DNA from: Sphaerotilus natans
GTDB lineage: Bacteria > Pseudomonadota > Gammaproteobacteria > Burkholderiales > Burkholderiaceae_C
NCBI RefSeq assembly: GCF_900156335.1
Contig: NZ_FTMZ01000003.1
Location: 65,950-129,949, forward strand
Direction of reading: 5' to 3'
DNA length: 64,000 nucleotides
The translations under genes and the position numbers were made by a program. This document shows, piece by piece, positions 14,692 through 24,055 of the stretch (position 1 is its first letter; every line of letters starts with the position of its first letter). The notes beneath the pieces were generated by a model. It worked only from the letters and a program-made list of their open reading frames with translations. It searched no databases and was not told the origin of the DNA.

Positions 14692-16926
14692 TCAGCTGCC
14701 GATGCGGCCGCCGTCGTTCTTGGTGATGACGATGGTGGCCGAGCGCGGGCGCTTGCCGGCGCCATAGCCGGCGTTCGACGGCCACTGGCTGGTGTACTTC
14801 GTCGGGTCGGCCACGTCGGCCATCTTCGTGCCTTCGCCCGGGTGCTGGATGTTGATGAACATCGTCTTGCCGTCCGGCGTCTCGGCCAGGCCGGTGATCT
14901 CGCAGTCCTTCGGGCCGACCAGGAAGCGCTTGAGCGTGTCGGCGGTCGGGGCCTTGCCGATGAAGGTGTCGACGCTCAGCGCGGTGCTGTGCGGCAGCGT
15001 CTTCTTCGCGCCGTCGCCGACGGTGCCGGGAATGCCCGCCAGCATCATGCAGTTGGTCACGTCGGTGTAGGCGCCGTCGTCGGTCTGGATCCAGCAGATG
15101 CCGGTGGACTTGCTGAACTTCAGGCCGTCCGGGCTGGAGAAGTCCTGGTCGGCGGTCAGGCTGGAGAGGTTGATCAGGCCGGTGTCGGCGTCGGCCTGGG
15201 CGCCGAACAGGTAGATGTCCCAGGTGAAGGTGGTGGCCGCGGCACTGCCGGCGGCTTCCTTCACGCGCAGGATGTGGCCGTTGGGGTTGCCCTGCTGTGC
15301 CGTCGTGCCCTTCATGTCGGTGTAGGCGCGCGGGTTGGCGCTGTCGGGCACGAGCTGGGTGCTGCTGCCGGCGGTCGGGCTGACGCGGCGGTTGCTGTTG
15401 TTGGTCAGCGTGAAGTAGATCTCGCCGCTGGTCGGGTGGGTGGCGCACCACTCCGGACGGTCCATCTTCGTGGCGCCCACCGCGTCGGCGGCCAGGCGGC
15501 AGTTGACGCGGATGTCGGCCTCGTCGGCGAAGGCGTAGGTGGTGTAGGTCGAGGGGATCGCGGCCTTGTTCAGCTCGATCCACTGGCCGGTGCCGTCGCT
15601 GGCGAACTTGGCGACATACAGCTTGCCGCTGTCGAGGTACTTCGCGCCGGTGGCCAGGCGGTCGGTGGGGTTGGCGTCGGCGGCTGCCCAGGCAGCGTCG
15701 GAGACGAACTTGTAGATGTACTCGTTGCGCGAGTCATCGCCCATGTAGACCGCGAGCTTCTCGCCGGCCTTCGGCAGCGAGAAGACGGCGCTCTCGTGCG
15801 CGAAGCGGCCCAGCGCGGTGCGCTTGACCAGGCGGCTGGTCGGCTTGTAGGGGTCCATCTCGACGATGTAGCCCATGCCGTTCATCTCGTTGCGGTAGTC
15901 GTCGCTGCCGTCGGTCGAGGTGCCGGTCTTGGCGTTGATCCAGCGGGCGTAGATGTCGGCGCTGCCGGCGGACTCCCAGCCGTGGCGCGAGGCGGCGCCT
16001 TCGGCGCGGCCGTAGCGCTTGAGCGCCACGACCGACTTGTCGTTGCCGCGGGCCAGGTCGTCACCGGCCGGGCGGGTGAAGTAGCCGAACCAGTTCTCTT
16101 CGCCGGTCAGGAAGCTGCCCCACGGCGTCTGGCCGGTGCCGCAGTTGTTCAGCGTGCCGCGGGTGCGGGTGCCGTCGACCGAGTACTTGGTCTTCAGCAG
16201 CGCATGGCCCTTGGCCGGACCGCCGATGTCGACTTCGGTCAGCGCGGTGACGCGGCGGTTGAAGCTCGAGTTCTGCACATAGGCCCAGGTGCTGCCGGTC
16301 TTCTTGACCTCGACCACCGCGACGCCGTGAATGGCGACTTCCTTGTCCACTTCCGAAGCCGGGCGAGGCAGCGTCTTGGTGCCGCCGTCGGTGTGCAGGA
16401 AGAAGGACGACAGCGTCTCGTCGGTGGTGGCCTCGTGGTTGATGGCGAGCAGGCCGCGATCGTTGGCGCTGGTCGAGGGCTGGCCGTCAGCCGACAGGCC
16501 GAACCATTCCATGCCGTCGTGGTGGTCGCCGCCGCGGTTGCCGTAGTCGGTGTCGGTGCCGTCGTTCTTGTAGGCGGCGGCCGAGGCGGTCAGCGGATCG
16601 CCCAGCGCGTAGACGACGGTGGCGCTGTAGCCGGCGGCCAGCGTCACCTGATCGGCCATGCCCTTGGGCACGGCGGTGAAGCCGAGCTTCGACAGCGCGC
16701 CGGCGTCCGGCGTGGTCGGCGCCGGGGTGTCGTCGTCGCCGCCGCCGCAGCCGGCCAGCGCGACGCTGCCGAACAGGGCGGTGGCCGCGGTGCCGACGCT
16801 GCCGCGCAGCAGGCCGCGACGGCTCAGACGCGCGTCCAGGACCGTGGCGAAATGCGGGTTGTCGCTGGTGTTGCTGTCCTCTTCGGCGCGAGCGGCGAGG
16901 TGGCTGAGGTCGACGGGCTTGTTCAT
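14692..16926 (-). CDS. phoX: PhoX-family alkaline phosphatase (DUF839), Tat-exported
   Basis: The 744-residue product has the Tat motif SRRGLLRG at residues 35-42. The hydrophobic segment ends in VALAGC60, which could be a lipobox. The DUF839/PhoX body contains WFGLSADGQP, AINHEATTDE, PWGSFLTGEENWFGYF, RFAHESAVF and GEIYFTLTNNSNR. PhoX enzymes use calcium and iron to hydrolyse phosphate esters outside the cytoplasm. ATG 16926 matches family length. An in-frame ATG at 17019 has a good GGGAGG site, but it would overlap the candidate Pho box, so I prefer the shorter form. It is convergent with the protease gene. Confidence 0.9.
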   Translation of the reverse strand: MNKPVDLSHLAARAEEDSNTSDNPHFATVLDARLSRRGLLRGSVGTAATALFGSVALAGCGGGDDDTPAPTTPDAGALSKLGFTAVPKGMADQVTLAAGYSATVVYALGDPLTASAAAYKNDGTDTDYGNRGGDHHDGMEWFGLSADGQPSTSANDRGLLAINHEATTDETLSSFFLHTDGGTKTLPRPASEVDKEVAIHGVAVVEVKKTGSTWAYVQNSSFNRRVTALTEVDIGGPAKGHALLKTKYSVDGTRTRGTLNNCGTGQTPWGSFLTGEENWFGYFTRPAGDDLARGNDKSVVALKRYGRAEGAASRHGWESAGSADIYARWINAKTGTSTDGSDDYRNEMNGMGYIVEMDPYKPTSRLVKRTALGRFAHESAVFSLPKAGEKLAVYMGDDSRNEYIYKFVSDAAWAAADANPTDRLATGAKYLDSGKLYVAKFASDGTGQWIELNKAAIPSTYTTYAFADEADIRVNCRLAADAVGATKMDRPEWCATHPTSGEIYFTLTNNSNRRVSPTAGSSTQLVPDSANPRAYTDMKGTTAQQGNPNGHILRVKEAAGSAAATTFTWDIYLFGAQADADTGLINLSSLTADQDFSSPDGLKFSKSTGICWIQTDDGAYTDVTNCMMLAGIPGTVGDGAKKTLPHSTALSVDTFIGKAPTADTLKRFLVGPKDCEITGLAETPDGKTMFINIQHPGEGTKMADVADPTKYTSQWPSNAGYGAGKRPRSATIVITKNDGGRIGS

Positions 16927-16986
16927 GGCGGAGGGTTGCTGTCGGGTGAAGAGAGGTAACGAACGGCGCGATGGTGTGCGGCTTGC

Positions 16987-17026
16987 GTGAAAAAACCGTG
17001 ACGGATTCACGACTGGCATGTGACGA
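16987..17026 (-). promoter_or_regulatory. Candidate Pho box upstream of phoX
   Basis: On the phoX strand four related heptamers start at exact 11-base intervals: TCGTCAC (17026-17020), CAGTCGT (17015-17009), CCGTCAC (17004-16998), TTTTCAC (16993-16987). The PhoB consensus is CTGTCAT repeated every 11 bases. Each unit matches it at 4 or 5 of 7 positions, and the core GTCA is best kept. The site lies 61-100 bases before ATG 16926. Confidence 0.5.
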
Positions 17027-17095
17027 CCTCCCGCCTGGACACCAGGGCTTCACCCGCGACAATCACCCTCCTTGTCCCTGCTGACCGATCCCGCC

Positions 17096-17413
17096 ATGAA
17101 CATCGTCTTGACCTTTCCTGATCTTCGCCGCGGCCTGGCCGTGACCGCGCTCGCTGTGCTGCCGCTGACGCTGGCGGGCTGCGGCGTGGTGGCGGTGGCC
17201 GGCTCGGTGGCGGGTGCGGCCATCACCGTCGGCAGCGCGGCGGTGTCGGTCGGCGCCACCGTGGTCACCACCGGCGTCAAGGTGACCGGCAAGGCGATCG
17301 GCAAGACCATCGACGCGGTCAGCGGCGAGCCGGCCGCCGCTGCGGCCGAGGGCGGTGGCATCGTCGTGGCGCCGTTGCCGGGCGAGCCGGGTGCCAGCAC
17401 ACCGGCGCGCTGA
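17096..17413 (+). CDS. Small Gly/Ala/Val-rich lipoprotein
   Basis: The 105-residue product has a lipoprotein signal with lipobox LTLAGC near residue 28. A low-complexity Val/Ala/Gly/Thr stretch follows (VVAVAGSVAGAAITVGSAAVSVGATVV), then TGKAIGKTIDAV and a Pro/Gly-rich tail. Small lipoproteins of this kind are frequent in Burkholderiales without a known role. ATG 17096 was chosen because it directly precedes the signal; a TTG at 17072 in frame is possible. It is divergent from phoX. Confidence 0.7.
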   Translation: MNIVLTFPDLRRGLAVTALAVLPLTLAGCGVVAVAGSVAGAAITVGSAAVSVGATVVTTGVKVTGKAIGKTIDAVSGEPAAAAAEGGGIVVAPLPGEPGASTPAR

Positions 17414-17581: not shown

Positions 17582-20500
17582 ATGCCCTGTCTCTCGCTTG
17601 TTGGTGTCCGTTCCGGTCGCCCGGGCCCTGCCCGATTCCACCGTCTCGGCGCCCTGTCGGCCTTGGCGATCACGCTGCTGCTGGCGGGCTGCTGGGGCTC
17701 GGACGAGGAAGCCTCGTCCACCCCGACGGGCGCCTCGCCGGCCGCCACCGAGGTGGGCGCGCCGCGTGCGCGCACGATGGCGATCGATCCGGCGCGGGCG
17801 CGCTGGTCGGCGGTGCGCACGCTGCCGCTGGTGCCGGTGTCGGCGGCCAATCTGCCCGACGGGCGGGTGCTGATGTGGTCGGCCGAGGAGAAGTTCAGCT
17901 TCGGCGGGGCCGGGCGCACCTACACGCTGACCTTCGATCCGGTCAGCGGCGCGGTCGCCGAGCGGCTGGTCACCGAGACCGGCCACGACATGTTCTGCCC
18001 CGGCACCACCAACCTGGCCGACGGCCGGCTGCTGGTCAACGGCGGGCTGGACTCGGCCCGGACCTCGATCTTCGACCCGGCCACCGGCACCTGGCGCAGC
18101 GGCGCGACGATGAACATTCCGCGCGGCTACCAGGCCAACACGCTGCTGGCCGACGGCAGCGTGCTGACGCTGGGCGGCTCGTGGAGCGGCGGCGTCGGCA
18201 ACAAGCACGGCGAGGTCTGGACCGAGGCGGGCGGCTGGCGGCGGCTGAGCGGCGTGCCGATCGACTCCTTCCTGTCGCCCGATCCGTCGCGCAACTTCGG
18301 CGGCGACTCGCATTTCTGGCTGATCCCGGCCGGCAACGGGCGGGTCTTTCACGCCGGCCCCGGCGTCAACATGCACTGGATCGATCCGACCGGCACCGGC
18401 GCGGTCGAGCCCGCCGGGCGCCGTGGCGACGACGAGTTCAGCGTCAGCGGCACCACGGTGATGTATGACGCCGGCCGGGTGCTCAAGACCGGCGGCGGCC
18501 CCGGCTACGACAGCGTGCAGGCCAATGCCAACACCTACGTGATCGACCTGGCCGGCGGGGCGACGGTGCGGAAAGTCGCGCCGATGGCCTACCGGCGCGC
18601 CTTCCACAACAGCGTGGTGCTGCCGGACGGCCGGGTGGTGATCCTGGGCGGGCAGACCTACGCGGTCGGCTTCTCGGATGCCAACGCGGTGCTGGCGCCC
18701 GAGATCTGGGATCCGCAGACCGAGACCTTCGCGACGCTGCCGGCGATGAGCGTGCCGCGCAACTACCACAGCATCGCGCTGCTGCTGCCCGATGGCCGGG
18801 TGCTGTCGGCCGGCGGCGGGCTGTGCGGCGCGGGCTGCGCGGCCAATCATCCGGACCTGCAGATCCTCAGCCCGCCCTATCTGTTCAATGCCGATGGCAG
18901 CGTCGCGATCCGGCCGCTCATCCAGCGCGCGCCCGAGCGCGCCGGTCATGGCGAGGTGGTCGAGGTGCAGACCGACAGCCCGGTCGAGGCCTTCTCGATC
19001 GTGCGCCTGTCCTCGACCACGCACACCGTCAACAACGACCAGCGCCGCCTGCCGCTGAATTTCCGTGCGCTGGGCGGCAACCGCTATGCGGTGGACATGC
19101 CGAGCAATCCGGGCCTGGCGCTGCCGGGCCACTGGATGCTGTTTGCGCTGAATGCCGCCGGCACGCCCTCGGTGTCGATCCGGCTGCATCTGACGCTCGA
19201 CGGCAGCCCGGCGATCGCGCCGGTGGCCGACCAGAGCGCGGCGGTCGGCGCGGCGGTGGACTTCGCACCGCGGCTGACGCTGCCGGCCGGCACGGTGGCC
19301 ACCTGGCGCGCCAGCGGCCTGCCCGACGGCGTGACGATCGACGCCGCCAGCGGCCGCATCCGCGGCACGCCGACGGTGGCCGGCACCTTCCGGGTCTCGG
19401 TCTTCGTCACCGCCGCCACCGGCACCGGTGCCAGCCGCACCGTCTCGACCGATTTTGTCTGGCGTGTCGGCGATCCGCGCGCGACCCGCTTCGTGCGGCT
19501 GGAGGCGCTGTCGGAGGTCAACGGCAACCCGTGGTCGTCGGCGGCGGAGATCGAGCTGCTCGGCGCCGACGGCCGCAGCCTGCCGCGCACCGGCTGGAGC
19601 GCGCGCGCCGACAGCGCCGAGACCGCCGGCGAGAACGGCGCGGCGGCGAACGTGCTCGACGGCAATCCGGCGACGATCTGGCACACCGAATGGAGCGCGA
19701 CGAACCGGCCGCTGCCGCACTGGATCGAGATCGACCTGAAGCAGGGCGCGGAGGTCACCGGCCTGCGCTACCGCCCGCGCACCGGCTCGCCCAACGGCAC
19801 CATCGGCCGCTACCGGGTGCTGCTCAGCGCTGACGGCAGCACCTGGAGCGCCCCGGTGGCCAGCGGCGACTTCGCCACGCTCGGCGCCGCCGCCGACGAG
19901 AAGGTGATTCACTTCGAGACCAGCGTTGCCCGCGGCCGCAGCGCCAGCCAGTCCTCGCAGTACGAGGCGGGGGCGGCGGCGCGTGCGGTCGACGGCAACA
20001 CCGACGGCAACTGGGGCGCCGGCTCGGTCACCCACACCCTGAGCGAGGCGGGGGCCTGGTGGGAGGTCGATCTCGGCCTCGCCCATGACCTGCACGCGAT
20101 CCGGCTCTGGAACCGCAGCGACTGCTGCGCCGACCGGCTGACGAACTTCCATGTCTTCGTCTCGGCCACGCCGATGGGCGGGCGCACGCTGGCGCAGCTG
20201 CTGGCCGATCCGACGGTCTGGCGCCAGAGCGTCGCCGGCGGCGCACCGCGCGCGCTGCGGCTGGAGGCCGCCGGCGCACGCGGCCGCTTCGTGCGGGTGC
20301 AGCTCGCCGGCACGAATTTCCTGCAGCTCGCCGAGGTGGAGGTGCACGGCCGCCCGGCGCCGGACCTGCCGCCGCCGGTGACGCTGCCGACGCTGCAGCC
20401 GATCACCGTCGCGCCGGTCGTCGCCGGCACGGCGGTGTCGTGGACGGCGCAGCCTTCGGTCGCCGGCCGCTACCAGTACCAGTGGGATTTCGGCGATGGC

Positions 20501-22972
20501 TCGGCGCCGGGCGCCTGGTCGGACTCGGCCTCGGCCAGCCGCAGCTATGCGGCGCCGGGTGTCTACACCGTGACGGTGACGCTGCGCACCACGGACGGCC
20601 GCACGACGACCCGCTCGTTCTGGCAGGTGGTGCAGGGCGCGGTGGTCGGGCAGGCGGGGCGTTCGTCCTCGCCGCTGGCGGTGGAGACGCGCAGCGGCGC
20701 GCCGGCACGGCTCTGGGCGGTCAATCCCGACCACGGCAGCGTCAGCGTCTTCGACCTGGCGACGAACAGCCGGCTGGCCACGATCGCCACCGGGGCGGCG
20801 CCGCGCACGCTGGCGCTGGCGCCGGATGGCCGCATCTGGGTGGTCAACCGCGACGCGGCGACGATCAGCATCGTCTCGCCGACGACGCTGGCGGTGGTGC
20901 AGACGCTGGCGCTGCCGCGCGCGTCGCAGCCCTACGGCCTGGTGATCGGCGCCGACGGCCAGGCCTGGGTCACGCTGGAGGCGGCCGGGCGGGTGCTGCG
21001 GCTGTCGGCGGCCGGCGCGGTGCAGGCCAGCGCCGAGGTCGGCCTGCACATGCGCCATCTGGCGCTGCAGGCCGACGGCCGCCGGCTGCTGGCGGCGCGC
21101 TTCATCTCGCCGCCGCTGCCGGGCGAAGGCACGGCGACGGTGGACACCACCCGCGGCGGCGGCGAGGTGGCGGTGCTGGACGCGGCCACGCTGGCGCGCC
21201 AGTCGACCGTCTGGCTGCGCCACAGCGAGCGGCCCGACACCACGGTGGGCGCCCGCGGCATTCCGAACTATCTCGGCGCGCCGGTCATCGCGCCCGACGG
21301 CCGCAGCGCCTGGCTGCCGTCCAAGCAGGACAATCTGCGCCGCGGCGCGCTGCGCGACGGTCAGCCGCTGACCTTCGAGAGCACGCTGCGTGCGGTCAGC
21401 TCGCGCATCGACCTGGGCAGCTTCAGCGAGGACACCGGCGCGCGCATCGACCATGACAACGGCGGCGTGGCCAGCGCGGCGGTCTTCCACCCGAGCGGCG
21501 GCTATCTCTTCGTCGCGCTGGAGGCCAGCCGGCAGATCGCGGTGGTCGATCCGGCCGGGCGGCGCGAGCTGCTGCGCGTCGATGCCGGACGGGCCCCGCA
21601 GGGGCTGGCGCTGTCGCCCGATGGTCTGACGCTCTATGTGCAGAACTTCCTGGACCGCAGCATCGGCGTGCATGACCTGCGCCCGCTGCTGCAGCGCGGC
21701 GAGCCGGTGCTGCCGCAGCTGCAGGCGATGGCCGCCACCGCGGCCGAGGTGCTGCCGGCGCCGGTGCTGCGCGGCAAGCAGCTCTTCTACGATGCCCGCG
21801 ATCCGCGGCTGGCGCGCGACGGCTACATCAGCTGCGCCGCCTGCCACCACGACGGCAGCCACGACGGCCGCACCTGGGACTTCACCAGCCTGGGCGAAGG
21901 CCTGCGCAACACCCCGAGCCTGCGCGGCCGCGCCGGTGCCCAGGGGCGGCTGCACTGGAGCGCCAACTTCGACGAGGTGCAGGACTTCGAGCACCAGATC
22001 CGCACGCTGCAGCTCGGCACCGGCCTGATGACGGACGCGCAGTTCGCCACCGGCAGCCGCAACCAGACGCTGGGCGACCGCAAGACCGGCGTCAGCGCCG
22101 ATCTGGATGCGCTTGCGGCCTATGTCGGCTCGCTCTCGAGCGCCGACCCGAGCCCGCTGCGCGCCGCCGACGGTGCGCTCACTGCCGATGCGCAGCTCGG
22201 CCGCCAGGTCTTTGCCACCAAGAACTGCGCGCAGTGCCACGGTGGAGCCGCGTTCACCGCCAGCAGCACGAGCGGCAGCCTGATGGACATCGGCACGCTG
22301 CTGCCGTCGAGCGGGCAGCGTCTGGGCGGGGCGCTGGCCGGCATCGACGTGCCGACGCTGCGCGATGTCTGGGCGACCGCACCCTATCTGCACGACGGCC
22401 GGGCCGCGACGCTGGCCGAGGCCCTGACCGCGCACCGCGGCGTGACGCTGACGCCGGCCGAGACCGCGGCGCTGGTGGCCTACCTGCCGCAGATCGGCCG
22501 CGAGGAGGCCAGCGCGCCGACCCCGCCGGTGGCGCCGCCCGCGGTGCAGGCCTCGCCGCTGTTCGGCGGCACCGGCGGCACGCCTTTCACCGATCCGGTG
22601 GCCGCGGGACAGCGCCTGACCGGAGTGACGATCAATGCTGGCTGGTGGATCGACGGGCTGCAGGCCCAGGCGACGCCGTCGGCGCTGCCGTGGCGCAGCG
22701 GCACCGGCGGCGGCCGCTCGAGCTTCACGCTGGCCAGCGGCGAGACGCTGGTGGGCGTGCGCGGCGAGATCGGCGACGGCCGTCTGGTCTCGAAGCTGAG
22801 CTTCGTCACCAGCACCGGCCGGGTGCTCGGCCCCTACGGCCTGAGCCGGGGCTTCAGCCGGGTCACGAGCTTCTCGTTCACCGTGCCGGCGGGGCAGCGC
22901 ATCGTCGGCTTCACCGGCCGCTCGGCGCAGTACCTCGACGCGATCGGCGTCCTGTACACCGCCGCGCCATGA
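17582..22972 (+). CDS. Galactose-oxidase-like copper-radical oxidase fused to di-haem cytochrome c and jacalin-like lectin
   Basis: The 1796-residue lipoprotein (lipobox LLAGC37) has, in order: a kelch-propeller galactose-oxidase domain with DUF1929-type C-terminal part (about 70-540); an Ig-like putative domain (about 545-630); two discoidin-type domains (about 632-780 and 780-925); a PKD domain (about 935-1020, with YQWDFGDG); and a YVTN-type propeller (about 1035-1370). A di-haem cytochrome-peroxidase-like region follows (about 1390-1640) with CAACH at 1418-1422 and CAQCH at 1549-1553. A jacalin-like lectin ends it (about 1658-1796). All galactose-oxidase site residues are present: Cys139 and Tyr183 (cross-link pair), Trp201, Tyr395, His396, His481. 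Spacings C-Y 44, C-W 62 and Y-H 86 equal those of the fungal enzyme. The predicted role is oxidation of a sugar or alcohol at the cell surface with electrons or peroxide handled by the haems (inference). The stop overlaps the next gene. Confidence 0.9.
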   Translation: MPCLSLVGVRSGRPGPARFHRLGALSALAITLLLAGCWGSDEEASSTPTGASPAATEVGAPRARTMAIDPARARWSAVRTLPLVPVSAANLPDGRVLMWSAEEKFSFGGAGRTYTLTFDPVSGAVAERLVTETGHDMFCPGTTNLADGRLLVNGGLDSARTSIFDPATGTWRSGATMNIPRGYQANTLLADGSVLTLGGSWSGGVGNKHGEVWTEAGGWRRLSGVPIDSFLSPDPSRNFGGDSHFWLIPAGNGRVFHAGPGVNMHWIDPTGTGAVEPAGRRGDDEFSVSGTTVMYDAGRVLKTGGGPGYDSVQANANTYVIDLAGGATVRKVAPMAYRRAFHNSVVLPDGRVVILGGQTYAVGFSDANAVLAPEIWDPQTETFATLPAMSVPRNYHSIALLLPDGRVLSAGGGLCGAGCAANHPDLQILSPPYLFNADGSVAIRPLIQRAPERAGHGEVVEVQTDSPVEAFSIVRLSSTTHTVNNDQRRLPLNFRALGGNRYAVDMPSNPGLALPGHWMLFALNAAGTPSVSIRLHLTLDGSPAIAPVADQSAAVGAAVDFAPRLTLPAGTVATWRASGLPDGVTIDAASGRIRGTPTVAGTFRVSVFVTAATGTGASRTVSTDFVWRVGDPRATRFVRLEALSEVNGNPWSSAAEIELLGADGRSLPRTGWSARADSAETAGENGAAANVLDGNPATIWHTEWSATNRPLPHWIEIDLKQGAEVTGLRYRPRTGSPNGTIGRYRVLLSADGSTWSAPVASGDFATLGAAADEKVIHFETSVARGRSASQSSQYEAGAAARAVDGNTDGNWGAGSVTHTLSEAGAWWEVDLGLAHDLHAIRLWNRSDCCADRLTNFHVFVSATPMGGRTLAQLLADPTVWRQSVAGGAPRALRLEAAGARGRFVRVQLAGTNFLQLAEVEVHGRPAPDLPPPVTLPTLQPITVAPVVAGTAVSWTAQPSVAGRYQYQWDFGDGSAPGAWSDSASASRSYAAPGVYTVTVTLRTTDGRTTTRSFWQVVQGAVVGQAGRSSSPLAVETRSGAPARLWAVNPDHGSVSVFDLATNSRLATIATGAAPRTLALAPDGRIWVVNRDAATISIVSPTTLAVVQTLALPRASQPYGLVIGADGQAWVTLEAAGRVLRLSAAGAVQASAEVGLHMRHLALQADGRRLLAARFISPPLPGEGTATVDTTRGGGEVAVLDAATLARQSTVWLRHSERPDTTVGARGIPNYLGAPVIAPDGRSAWLPSKQDNLRRGALRDGQPLTFESTLRAVSSRIDLGSFSEDTGARIDHDNGGVASAAVFHPSGGYLFVALEASRQIAVVDPAGRRELLRVDAGRAPQGLALSPDGLTLYVQNFLDRSIGVHDLRPLLQRGEPVLPQLQAMAATAAEVLPAPVLRGKQLFYDARDPRLARDGYISCAACHHDGSHDGRTWDFTSLGEGLRNTPSLRGRAGAQGRLHWSANFDEVQDFEHQIRTLQLGTGLMTDAQFATGSRNQTLGDRKTGVSADLDALAAYVGSLSSADPSPLRAADGALTADAQLGRQVFATKNCAQCHGGAAFTASSTSGSLMDIGTLLPSSGQRLGGALAGIDVPTLRDVWATAPYLHDGRAATLAEALTAHRGVTLTPAETAALVAYLPQIGREEASAPTPPVAPPAVQASPLFGGTGGTPFTDPVAAGQRLTGVTINAGWWIDGLQAQATPSALPWRSGTGGGRSSFTLASGETLVGVRGEIGDGRLVSKLSFVTSTGRVLGPYGLSRGFSRVTSFSFTVPAGQRIVGFTGRSAQYLDAIGVLYTAAP

Positions 22973-23421
22973 ACGGGGTGTCCGCGATGGTGGCGACGCT
23001 GATGGCTCTGTCGGCCGCCCTGCCGGCGGCGGCCACGCCGCAGGCGGTCGCCCGCACGCACGGCGAGGCGCTGTGGCGCGGCGAGCGGCCGCTGGCCGGC
23101 CAGATCGCCGGGCATGCGCAGGCGATGCCGGCGGCGGCGCTGCGCTGCATCAACTGCCATGGCGGCGGCCCCGGCGCGGCGCCGGGCGGGGCGCCCCGGC
23201 TCGATGCCGCCACGTTGACCCGGCCGCTGGCGCGGCGTGGCGGGCCGCCGTCGGTCTATGACGAGCAGGCCTTCTGCCGGCTGCTGCGCACCGGCATCGA
23301 TCCGGCCGCAGTGCTGCTGCCGCGCGAGATGCCGCGCTACCGCATCGACGATCATGACTGTGCCGCGCTGTGGCGGCATCTGGTGGCATCTGATGGCGAC
23401 GCGCCGAGGATCACGCGATGA
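22969..23421 (+). CDS. Small exported mono-haem cytochrome c-like protein (copy 1)
   Basis: The 150-residue product has a signal peptide (LMALSAALPAAA, ending near residue 22) and one haem-binding motif CINCH at residues 60-64. A possible axial Met lies in REMPRY around residue 120. Two further cysteines sit in FCRLLRTG and DCAALWRHL. The same layout recurs in the protein at 26645-27094. Its ATG overlaps the stop of the oxidase gene (22969-22972), so the two are translationally coupled. It likely passes electrons to or from the fusion protein (inference). Confidence 0.75.
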   Translation: MNGVSAMVATLMALSAALPAAATPQAVARTHGEALWRGERPLAGQIAGHAQAMPAAALRCINCHGGGPGAAPGGAPRLDAATLTRPLARRGGPPSVYDEQAFCRLLRTGIDPAAVLLPREMPRYRIDDHDCAALWRHLVASDGDAPRITR

Positions 23422-23431
23422 GGAGCTGTCG

Positions 23432-24035
23432 ATGAGAACGCAGCCCGCCCCGATGACACGCCGCGCCTGGCTGCGCGGCCTGGGCGCACTGGCGGCCGGG
23501 ACCGCCGGGTGGGTGGCCGGCGCGCCGGCACAGGCGCATGGCGAGCTGGGTCCGCTCACCCCGCCGCAGCCGCTGCCCGATCTCGTGCTGACGCTGCATG
23601 ACGGCCGCCGCGTGGCGCTGGCGCCTCTGCTGCGGGGCCGGGTGACCGCGCTGCAGCTGATGTTCACCGGCTGCAGCTCGGTCTGCCCGCTGCAGGGCGC
23701 GCTGTTCGCGCAGACGCAGGCGCAGCTGTCCACCTCCACCCCGCCGCTGCCTTGGCAGCTGCTGTCGGTCAGCATCGACCCGCTGGGCGACGATGCCCGC
23801 GCGCTCGCGGCCTGGCGGCAGCGTCACGGCGCCGGCGCCCGCTGGCTGGCCGGCGTGCCGGCGCTGGCCGAGGCGGATCTGCTGCTCGACCGGCTGCGCG
23901 GCCGCAGCAGCCGCGGGCCGGATCGCCACACCTCGCAGGTCTTCGTGATCGACGCGGCCGGGCGGCTGGCCTTTCGCACCGCCGAGCTGGCCGATCCGGC
24001 CGCGATCGTCACGGCGCTGCGCGGCGTGGCGGGTG

Positions 24036-24055
<20 letters not shown>
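23432..24055 (+). CDS. SCO1/SenC-family copper chaperone
   Basis: The 207-residue product has a Tat-like signal (TRRAWLRGLGALAAGTAG) and a thioredoxin fold. The SCO copper ligands are CSSVC (Cys81, Cys85) and His166 in DRHTSQVFVID. SCO proteins deliver or reduce copper for periplasmic cuproenzymes, classically the CuA site of cytochrome oxidase. Its position 10 bases after the cytochrome gene, in the operon of a predicted copper-radical oxidase, suggests that enzyme as its client (inference). AGGAG lies 8 bases before the ATG. The last 20 bases overlap the convergent uvrD. Confidence 0.88.

Follow-up and report, generated by a model that had tools for sequence, protein, structure and literature searches.

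The subject of this study is an open reading frame (ORF) at positions 17582-22972 on the plus strand of a 64,000-nucleotide (nt) stretch of Sphaerotilus natans DNA, referred to below as the window, in whose positions all coordinates are given. The frame is free of stops over its 1796 codons when translated, is the same in the whole-genome copy, and begins with a signal peptide (residues 1-37, 17582..17692) carrying the lipobox LLAGC, a pattern found in 16 of the 21 rows tested, the window's among them. This bears out the single lipoprotein chain of 1796 residues described in an initial annotation, which had proposed a galactose-oxidase-type copper-radical oxidase fused to a di-haem cytochrome and had advised a domain search. 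Pfam matches were obtained to Kelch_6, GO-like_E_set, He_PIG, F5/8 type C (two stretches), PKD, YVTN-type propeller models, CCP_MauG, Cytochrom_C and Jacalin. Together with matches in the Protein Data Bank (PDB) they give the following order, all on the plus strand: an AA5 copper-radical oxidase domain (residues 65-540, 17774..19201; Kelch_6 and GO-like_E_set in Pfam, 9g43 and 1gof in the PDB), a He_PIG Ig-like domain (19208..19447), two F5/8 type C, galactose-binding-like domains (19469..20365), a PKD domain (20393..20635), a beta-propeller of the YVTN/YncE type (residues 1019-1385, 20636..21736; Pfam, NCBIfam and Foldseek), a di-haem domain of the bCCP/MauG/hydrazine-synthase-gamma superfamily (residues 1386-1645, 21737..22516; CCP_MauG and Cytochrom_C in Pfam, best profile match 5c2v_C) and a jacalin-like lectin domain (22544..22969). 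In the PDB comparison the first F5/8 domain is similar to the lectin domain at the N-terminus of galactose oxidase, although in the window protein it follows the oxidase. As predicted from its sequence, the window protein is an exported lipoprotein that combines an AA5 oxidase, lectin-like domains and a propeller-di-haem module.

The oxidase domain has its top PDB match in the bacterial galactose oxidase 9g43 (E 3e-174); next comes 1gof, the enzyme of Fusarium (E about 1e-139). It can be aligned with both along its length, and these alignments confirm all six active-site residues that the initial annotation had listed. They are Cys139 (17996..17998), aligned with the Cys of the HDMFCPG motif, Tyr183 (18128..18130), the radical and copper ligand, the stacking Trp201 (18182..18184), the copper ligands Tyr395 and His396 (18764..18769), and the copper ligand His481 (19022..19024); their Fusarium equivalents we take to be C228, Y272, W290, Y495, H496 and H581. 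The Cys, Tyr, Tyr-His and His of the copper site are kept throughout two alignments, one of 29 rows that includes some fragments and one of 43 rows that includes fused and unfused oxidases (29/29 and 43/43), and in the window protein they lie within a kelch propeller and E-set, as expected of an AA5 enzyme. The Trp is more variable: in the 43-row alignment it is in place in 17 of 18 rows of the relatives designated clade A below (Phe in L073) and in none of the clade B rows, and in the 29-row alignment it is missing from locus L027. The galactose-specific features of subfamily AA5_2 are absent from the window protein, which has Gly and Asp in place of the two galactose contacts, presumably Arg330 and Gln406 in the Fusarium enzyme, so that galactose need not be its substrate. 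Some fused relatives (L021, L073, L074 and L124) retain the Arg; its loss is therefore not family-wide, and a coupling between this loss and the fusion, which we had considered, was rejected. At L124, on a Comamonadaceae plasmid, genes of aromatic breakdown, among them one for protocatechuate dioxygenase, are found close to the fusion operon, surroundings which may hint at aromatic alcohols as substrate.

The second half of the protein departs further from the initial description. Two CxxCH sites are indeed present in the same chain, CAACH at residues 1418-1422 (haem 1, 21833..21847) and CAQCH at residues 1549-1553 (haem 2, 22226..22240), and their Cys, Cys and His are found in 54/54 rows of the di-haem alignment, as is Trp1459. 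In a profile search with the di-haem domain, hydrazine synthase gamma (5c2v_C) came first (E 3e-26), above bacterial di-haem peroxidases and MauG, and in a Foldseek search with the model of the preceding propeller, hydrazine synthase beta (5c2v_B, TMt 0.72) came second to 1l0q. The NCBIfam model of hydrazine synthase beta-gamma scores 50.6 bits, under its cut-off of 1250. CCP_MauG aligns over profile positions 7-76 of 149 only, in contrast to the 141-148 positions covered in the best 9 of 17 matches listed from 7 genomes. The probable sixth ligand of haem 2 is His1618 (22433..22435), and 45 of the 54 rows have His in this column, 7 have it in the next and 2 a few positions further on; the corresponding ligand is Met in peroxidases and Tyr in MauG (PMC6405878). 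A propeller joined to a di-haem domain with His as sixth ligand of the second haem, a ligation assigned by alignment, is the arrangement of hydrazine synthase beta-gamma. Residues 1385-1645 hold no Cys beyond the two CxxCH motifs, and thus no equivalent of Cys165 of hydrazine synthase gamma.

The residue that splits H2O2 in the di-haem peroxidases and MauG is replaced. Profile alignments place Leu1482 (22025..22027) at the position of the catalytic Glu, which across the 54 rows is Leu in 45, Phe in 8 and a gap in one (the stand-alone relative L125); an ungapped HMMER alignment places Gly1479 there, likewise non-acidic. Of the bCCP/MauG controls, 7 of 8 from related genomes retain the Glu (9 loci tried, of which L134 had no usable domain), as do 7 of 7 aligned from 19 loci on viral contigs. 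A Glu found in the group designated clade C below (RNEFGG) was considered as the peroxidase Glu and dropped, the profile alignment giving it no support. The domain thus has neither the distal Glu nor the Met ligand of the bacterial di-haem peroxidases (His1618 standing in place of the Met, with its ligand role assigned by alignment), nor the Tyr ligand on a six-coordinate haem and distal Glu of MauG and MbnH. The initial annotation, which had likened this region to di-haem peroxidases, is to be corrected here: the domain is no typical peroxidase.

These replacements bear on the first of the alternatives to be weighed, namely that the module is a built-in peroxidase: H2O2 formed at the copper site with the use of oxygen would be reduced to water by the di-haem domain, with electrons from a small cytochrome c, and the enzyme and the cell would thereby be protected. 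The domain is homologous to di-haem peroxidases, 45 of the 54 rows retain Gln1472, the Gln of the peroxidases, and a conserved His1458 lies in the distal pocket; moreover, BthA with a His introduced at the second haem is described as still reducing H2O2 with an external donor (PMC6405878). Against this, Leu or Phe stands in place of the catalytic Glu in each of the 53 rows with a residue at that position, and variants of the bacterial peroxidase at the catalytic Glu or Gln are reported to be inactive (PMC10094543). Removal of the enzyme's own peroxide, one of two roles initially suggested, is weakened by the loss of the Glu while the conserved distal His still speaks for it; we consider it unlikely, though with an appreciable share of the probability.

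To establish how widely this architecture occurs, we collected the family by a bacterial genome scan (27 loci), with additional loci from further genome scans; locus regions were retrieved for 40 matches and 13 more, a subset of the matches listed, and five exact duplicates were removed before the trees and all later counts. The search for other proteins with both domains, as the initial annotation had recommended, yielded 45 other distinct single-frame fusions: 43 in the trees, a few of them truncated by contig ends, together with L113 and L124. On a public Comamonadaceae plasmid the fusion is annotated as a discoidin domain-containing protein. Among genomes of the same family, AA5-type matches (E 1e-20 or better) occur in 27 of 299, the propeller-di-haem module (E 1e-40 or better) in 30 of 299, and fusion in a single frame could be confirmed for 21 of 299; among genomes of the order, AA5-type matches occur in 19 of 399, and among genomes of the phylum the module occurs in 3 of 398. 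The A2 scan of viral contigs returned no relatives. The frame is broken at two loci, L015 and L080, as would be seen if a frameshift or a chimeric assembly had joined two genes; against this stand the 45 other distinct fusions, uninterrupted and from other genera, and L076, whose frame is intact and whose sequence in the di-haem alignment is almost that of L015. That the fusion is such an artefact, which in the form of a frameshift the initial annotation had named as a possible refutation, therefore has a minute chance of being correct.

The oxidases fused to the module fall into two subfamilies, clade A, which is AA5_2-like, and clade B, which resembles GlxA and glyoxal oxidase. Between the two clades the oxidases are 31.0% identical (median of 372 pairs; 27.1-35.4) as against 59.2% for the modules (median; 49.3-72.5), whereas for the 133 pairs within clade A whose modules are 52-60% identical, the oxidases have a median identity of 56.5% and a minimum of 46.4. 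Clades A and B are likewise separated in the trees, which are in accord except on the long-branched L105. Given the disparity between 31.0% and 59.2%, the simplest reading of these sequences is that the oxidase has probably been swapped on a constant propeller-di-haem module. The two parts also occur separately. Oxidases without the module are found in actinobacterial relatives (L022, L024, L025 and L164) and in Methylopila (L028), and a stand-alone propeller-di-haem relative is found on a plasmid in Anoxybacillus (L125:3717-7815), where it adjoins a 686-codon gene without a Pfam or NCBIfam match. At L090:7392-15095 a fusion of 2568 residues carries two tandem propeller-di-haem modules.

In a third group, clade C, the module stands behind another propeller, which is weakly LVIVD-like and not an AA5 oxidase. 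Its loci (L111, L112, L114-L120 and L123) have a propeller with weak similarity to LVIVD and choice-of-anchor-B models, with a Big_5 domain in L111 and L114 and LamG and ricin lectin domains in L111, and a search for a known enzyme matching the N-terminal propeller of clade C found none. The attachment of the module to a propeller other than an AA5 oxidase, together with hydrazine synthase gamma as the closest profile match, would fit a protein whose halves share a scaffold only, the di-haem domain having a chemistry of its own with, say, O2 or NO, of which RoxA and hydrazine synthase gamma are examples. We find such separate catalysis improbable, as the module accompanies AA5 oxidases in two distant subfamilies.

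Two genes follow the fusion closely on the same strand. The first (22969..23421) encodes a small mono-haem cytochrome c of 150 residues, recognised by its CxxCH motif, and overlaps the stop of the oxidase gene (ATGA); its Pfam matches are under the cut-off, and its relatives (29 rows, one of them the window copy) share the CxxCH, RRGGP and MP motifs and two further Cys. The second (23432..24055) encodes a SCO1/SenC copper chaperone (Pfam SCO1-SenC, E 9.5e-10, 39 bits against a cut-off of 22.8), with the CxxxC motif (CSSVC) and a later His expected of this family. On the other side, a 113-residue lipoprotein-like ORF (17072-17413, plus strand; LAGCG) without a Pfam match lies upstream of the fusion, and a PhoX-type alkaline phosphatase gene (14692-17019, minus strand) adjoins the operon; a PhoX gene is also found near the copy from the same genus, L068.

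Both downstream genes adjoin 25 of 33 clade A fusions, the window included (26 of 34 before removal of L107, which is the window copy), in a tally that assigns loci by identity, with L027 in clade A and L113 in clade B, and that omits L091 from the fused rows of clade B, since the best oxidase match at this locus is a different gene. Of the eight clade A fusions without both genes, three (L011, L021 and L074) are in records that end at most 1.3 kb downstream, and at two Azohydromonas loci the cytochrome c and SCO genes are transcribed in the opposite direction. The pair also adjoins all five unfused Burkholderiaceae oxidases from plasmids (two from Cupriavidus and one each from Caballeronia, Burkholderia and Paraburkholderia), on the same strand in four and on the other strand in L162, and a search of the plasmid collection (E 1e-30) did not find the propeller-di-haem module in those five records. 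At the Cupriavidus locus L162:6718-8067, the SCO and cytochrome c genes are separated by a fragment of a second oxidase (its E-set part), which lies opposite to the intact one. Neither gene is found at the four actinobacterial loci. The small cytochrome c is thus tied to oxidases that have no di-haem domain at all, which argues that it serves the oxidase itself. For the built-in peroxidase this cuts both ways: small cytochromes c are the usual type of donor to di-haem peroxidases, and a dedicated one stands beside 25 of 33 clade A fusions, yet the same cytochrome stands beside 5 of 5 oxidases without a di-haem domain.

That the genes for cytochrome c and SCO occur together next to clade A oxidases, whether these are fused or not, also suggests an alternative in which the haem domain acts with SCO and the cytochrome in activating or maturing the copper site, by oxidising inactive Cu(II)-Tyr, by adjusting the redox state of copper during loading, or by aiding formation of the Tyr-Cys bond. 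In Streptomyces, maturation of GlxA is reported to require Sco and the haem peroxidase DtpA, the proposed oxidant of Sco-bound Cu(I) (PMC4736821), and at L027, a metagenome-assembled genome from the Gammaproteobacteria, and L113, of the same class, which hold the two fusions from outside Burkholderiales, a separate MauG-type di-haem gene adjoins on the same strand (L027:2891-4618 and L113:10092-11576), retaining Gln, Glu and Tyr. We nevertheless think a role in activation rather unlikely. The Tyr-Cys cofactor of galactose oxidase is described as forming by self-processing (PMC4370742), chemistry of the MauG type needs the Glu and the Tyr ligand (PMC6405878), neither of which is present here, and SCO is found near clade B fusions in 2 of 12 rows only.

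The reading we place first, tentatively and at somewhat less than an even chance, is that the di-haem module would serve the copper site as a built-in partner for electron transfer and would exchange electrons with the small cytochrome c. It owes its rank to the loss of the peroxide-splitting Glu in the whole set alongside invariant haem sites, and to the cytochrome, which accompanies the oxidase even where there is no module. Counted in its favour as well are the complete copper site, the 45 other fusions, the retention of the module with oxidases that differ widely, the His in place of the Met or Tyr ligand, as in the bis-His haem gamma-II of hydrazine synthase (PMC12607021), and the separate MauG-type genes beside L027 and L113. 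In this mechanism the lectin-like domains would hold the enzyme on glycans, SCO would load the copper, and the Tyr-Cys radical site would oxidise a primary alcohol or aldehyde on the bound glycan, while the di-haem domain would relay electrons between the copper site and the small cytochrome c, whose haem is probably His/Met-ligated. The most likely direction would be from the reduced copper site outwards, with no splitting of H2O2 of the kind carried out by a di-haem peroxidase. In its boldest form oxygen would be bypassed fully or in part, and the protein would be a natural cytochrome-wired AA5 dehydrogenase, a copper-radical enzyme whose electrons reach cytochrome c and the respiratory chain through a di-haem module resembling that of hydrazine synthase, while oxygen would take electrons only on the side or not at all; this stronger claim we regard as doubtful.

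Several observations weigh against an electron relay. Bis-His haems are usually low in potential and the couples of galactose oxidase lie well above 0 V, so that outward electron transfer could be uphill. The bis-His haem gamma-II of hydrazine synthase, at about -330 mV, illustrates the low end (PMC12607021). Fungal galactose oxidase is reported to be inactive with every acceptor but oxygen and to have no dehydrogenase activity (PMC4370742); use of ferricyanide as an acceptor, considered as support for a relay, was dropped, since the same source reports 0%. The diversion of electrons to a cytochrome, the second role initially suggested, is compatible with the conserved neighbouring cytochrome c and has this evidence from the fungal enzyme against it. 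His1458, which takes the place of the distal-pocket Phe in 53 of 54 rows, could be a ligand of haem 1 or, less favourably for a relay, an acid-base residue. Clade B fusions have such a cytochrome c in 0 of 12 rows, and the module occurs behind the clade C propeller, which is no AA5 oxidase. Finally, an AlphaFold model of residues 938-1645 (21 rows) gives a good propeller and a predicted local distance difference test (pLDDT) value below 50 across much of the di-haem part, and a model of the di-haem domain alone (23 rows) has a mean of 63.3; as this part is poorly predicted, the models were used for fold matches only. On account of the fungal enzyme's restriction to oxygen, and of the usual potential of bis-His haems, which is too low for electrons to move outwards with ease, the peroxidase and activation alternatives between them keep nearly half of the probability.

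Both halves of the fusion are of known kinds, and their combination appears to be new as far as the literature searched shows. Searches on the fusion and neighbouring subjects, with subscription journals and preprints mostly outside their reach, found no paper describing it in title or opening of the abstract, nor a characterised enzyme built of AA5 and di-haem domains, in agreement with the initial annotation. The abstract of a review of cytochrome-bearing oxidoreductases names flavin, quinone, molybdenum, iron-sulfur and multi-haem classes and no copper-radical class (PMC6472588). If true, electron exchange with a cytochrome, beyond oxygen alone, would be new for galactose-oxidase-type enzymes. 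To our knowledge, copper-radical oxidases depend strictly on oxygen and produce peroxide, and their industrial use calls for the addition of peroxidase and catalase. A version conserved in nature, carrying a di-haem module in the same chain and accompanied by a cytochrome c of its own, would reveal either how such a site is wired to a respiratory chain or how it is kept active, and with dozens of members and separable domains, the relay and activation ideas are directly testable.

Of the known systems, galactose oxidase (AA5_2; 9g43 and 1gof) shares with the window protein the oxidase fold, the six active-site residues and an F5/8 galactose-binding-like domain, and differs in that this domain precedes the oxidase, that its two galactose contacts are replaced here, and that the propeller-di-haem module is an addition. 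A bacterial AA5 enzyme with a fused domain has a parallel in the Burkholderia pseudomallei alcohol oxidase, known to us from a reference entry in PMC11267884, although its partner is an inactive CE3 esterase domain and not a cytochrome. The Streptomyces system of GlxA, Sco and DtpA likewise links a copper-radical oxidase to an SCO chaperone and a haem protein (PMC4736821) and is, by analogy, the closest working precedent for activation or maturation; its haem protein, however, is a separate DyP peroxidase and not a fused c-type di-haem domain, and the window protein reaches 143.5 bits against the NCBIfam GlxA model, whose cut-off is 800. With bCCP, MauG and MbnH the module shares two CxxCH motifs, the inter-haem Trp and a PYxHDG-type motif, and differs in the change of Glu to Leu or Phe and of the Met or Tyr ligand to His. 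The beta and gamma parts of hydrazine synthase (5c2v B and C) share with it the order of propeller and di-haem domain, the lack of a catalytic Glu in the aligned segment and the His at the second haem (PMC12607021); they have no AA5 domain, and their third haem-linked residue, Cys165, is not seen in the window protein. Distant fused homologues of hydrazine synthase beta-gamma are described as prevalent in environmental bacteria (PMC12758564), and the family collected here now places a module of this likeness in Burkholderiales.

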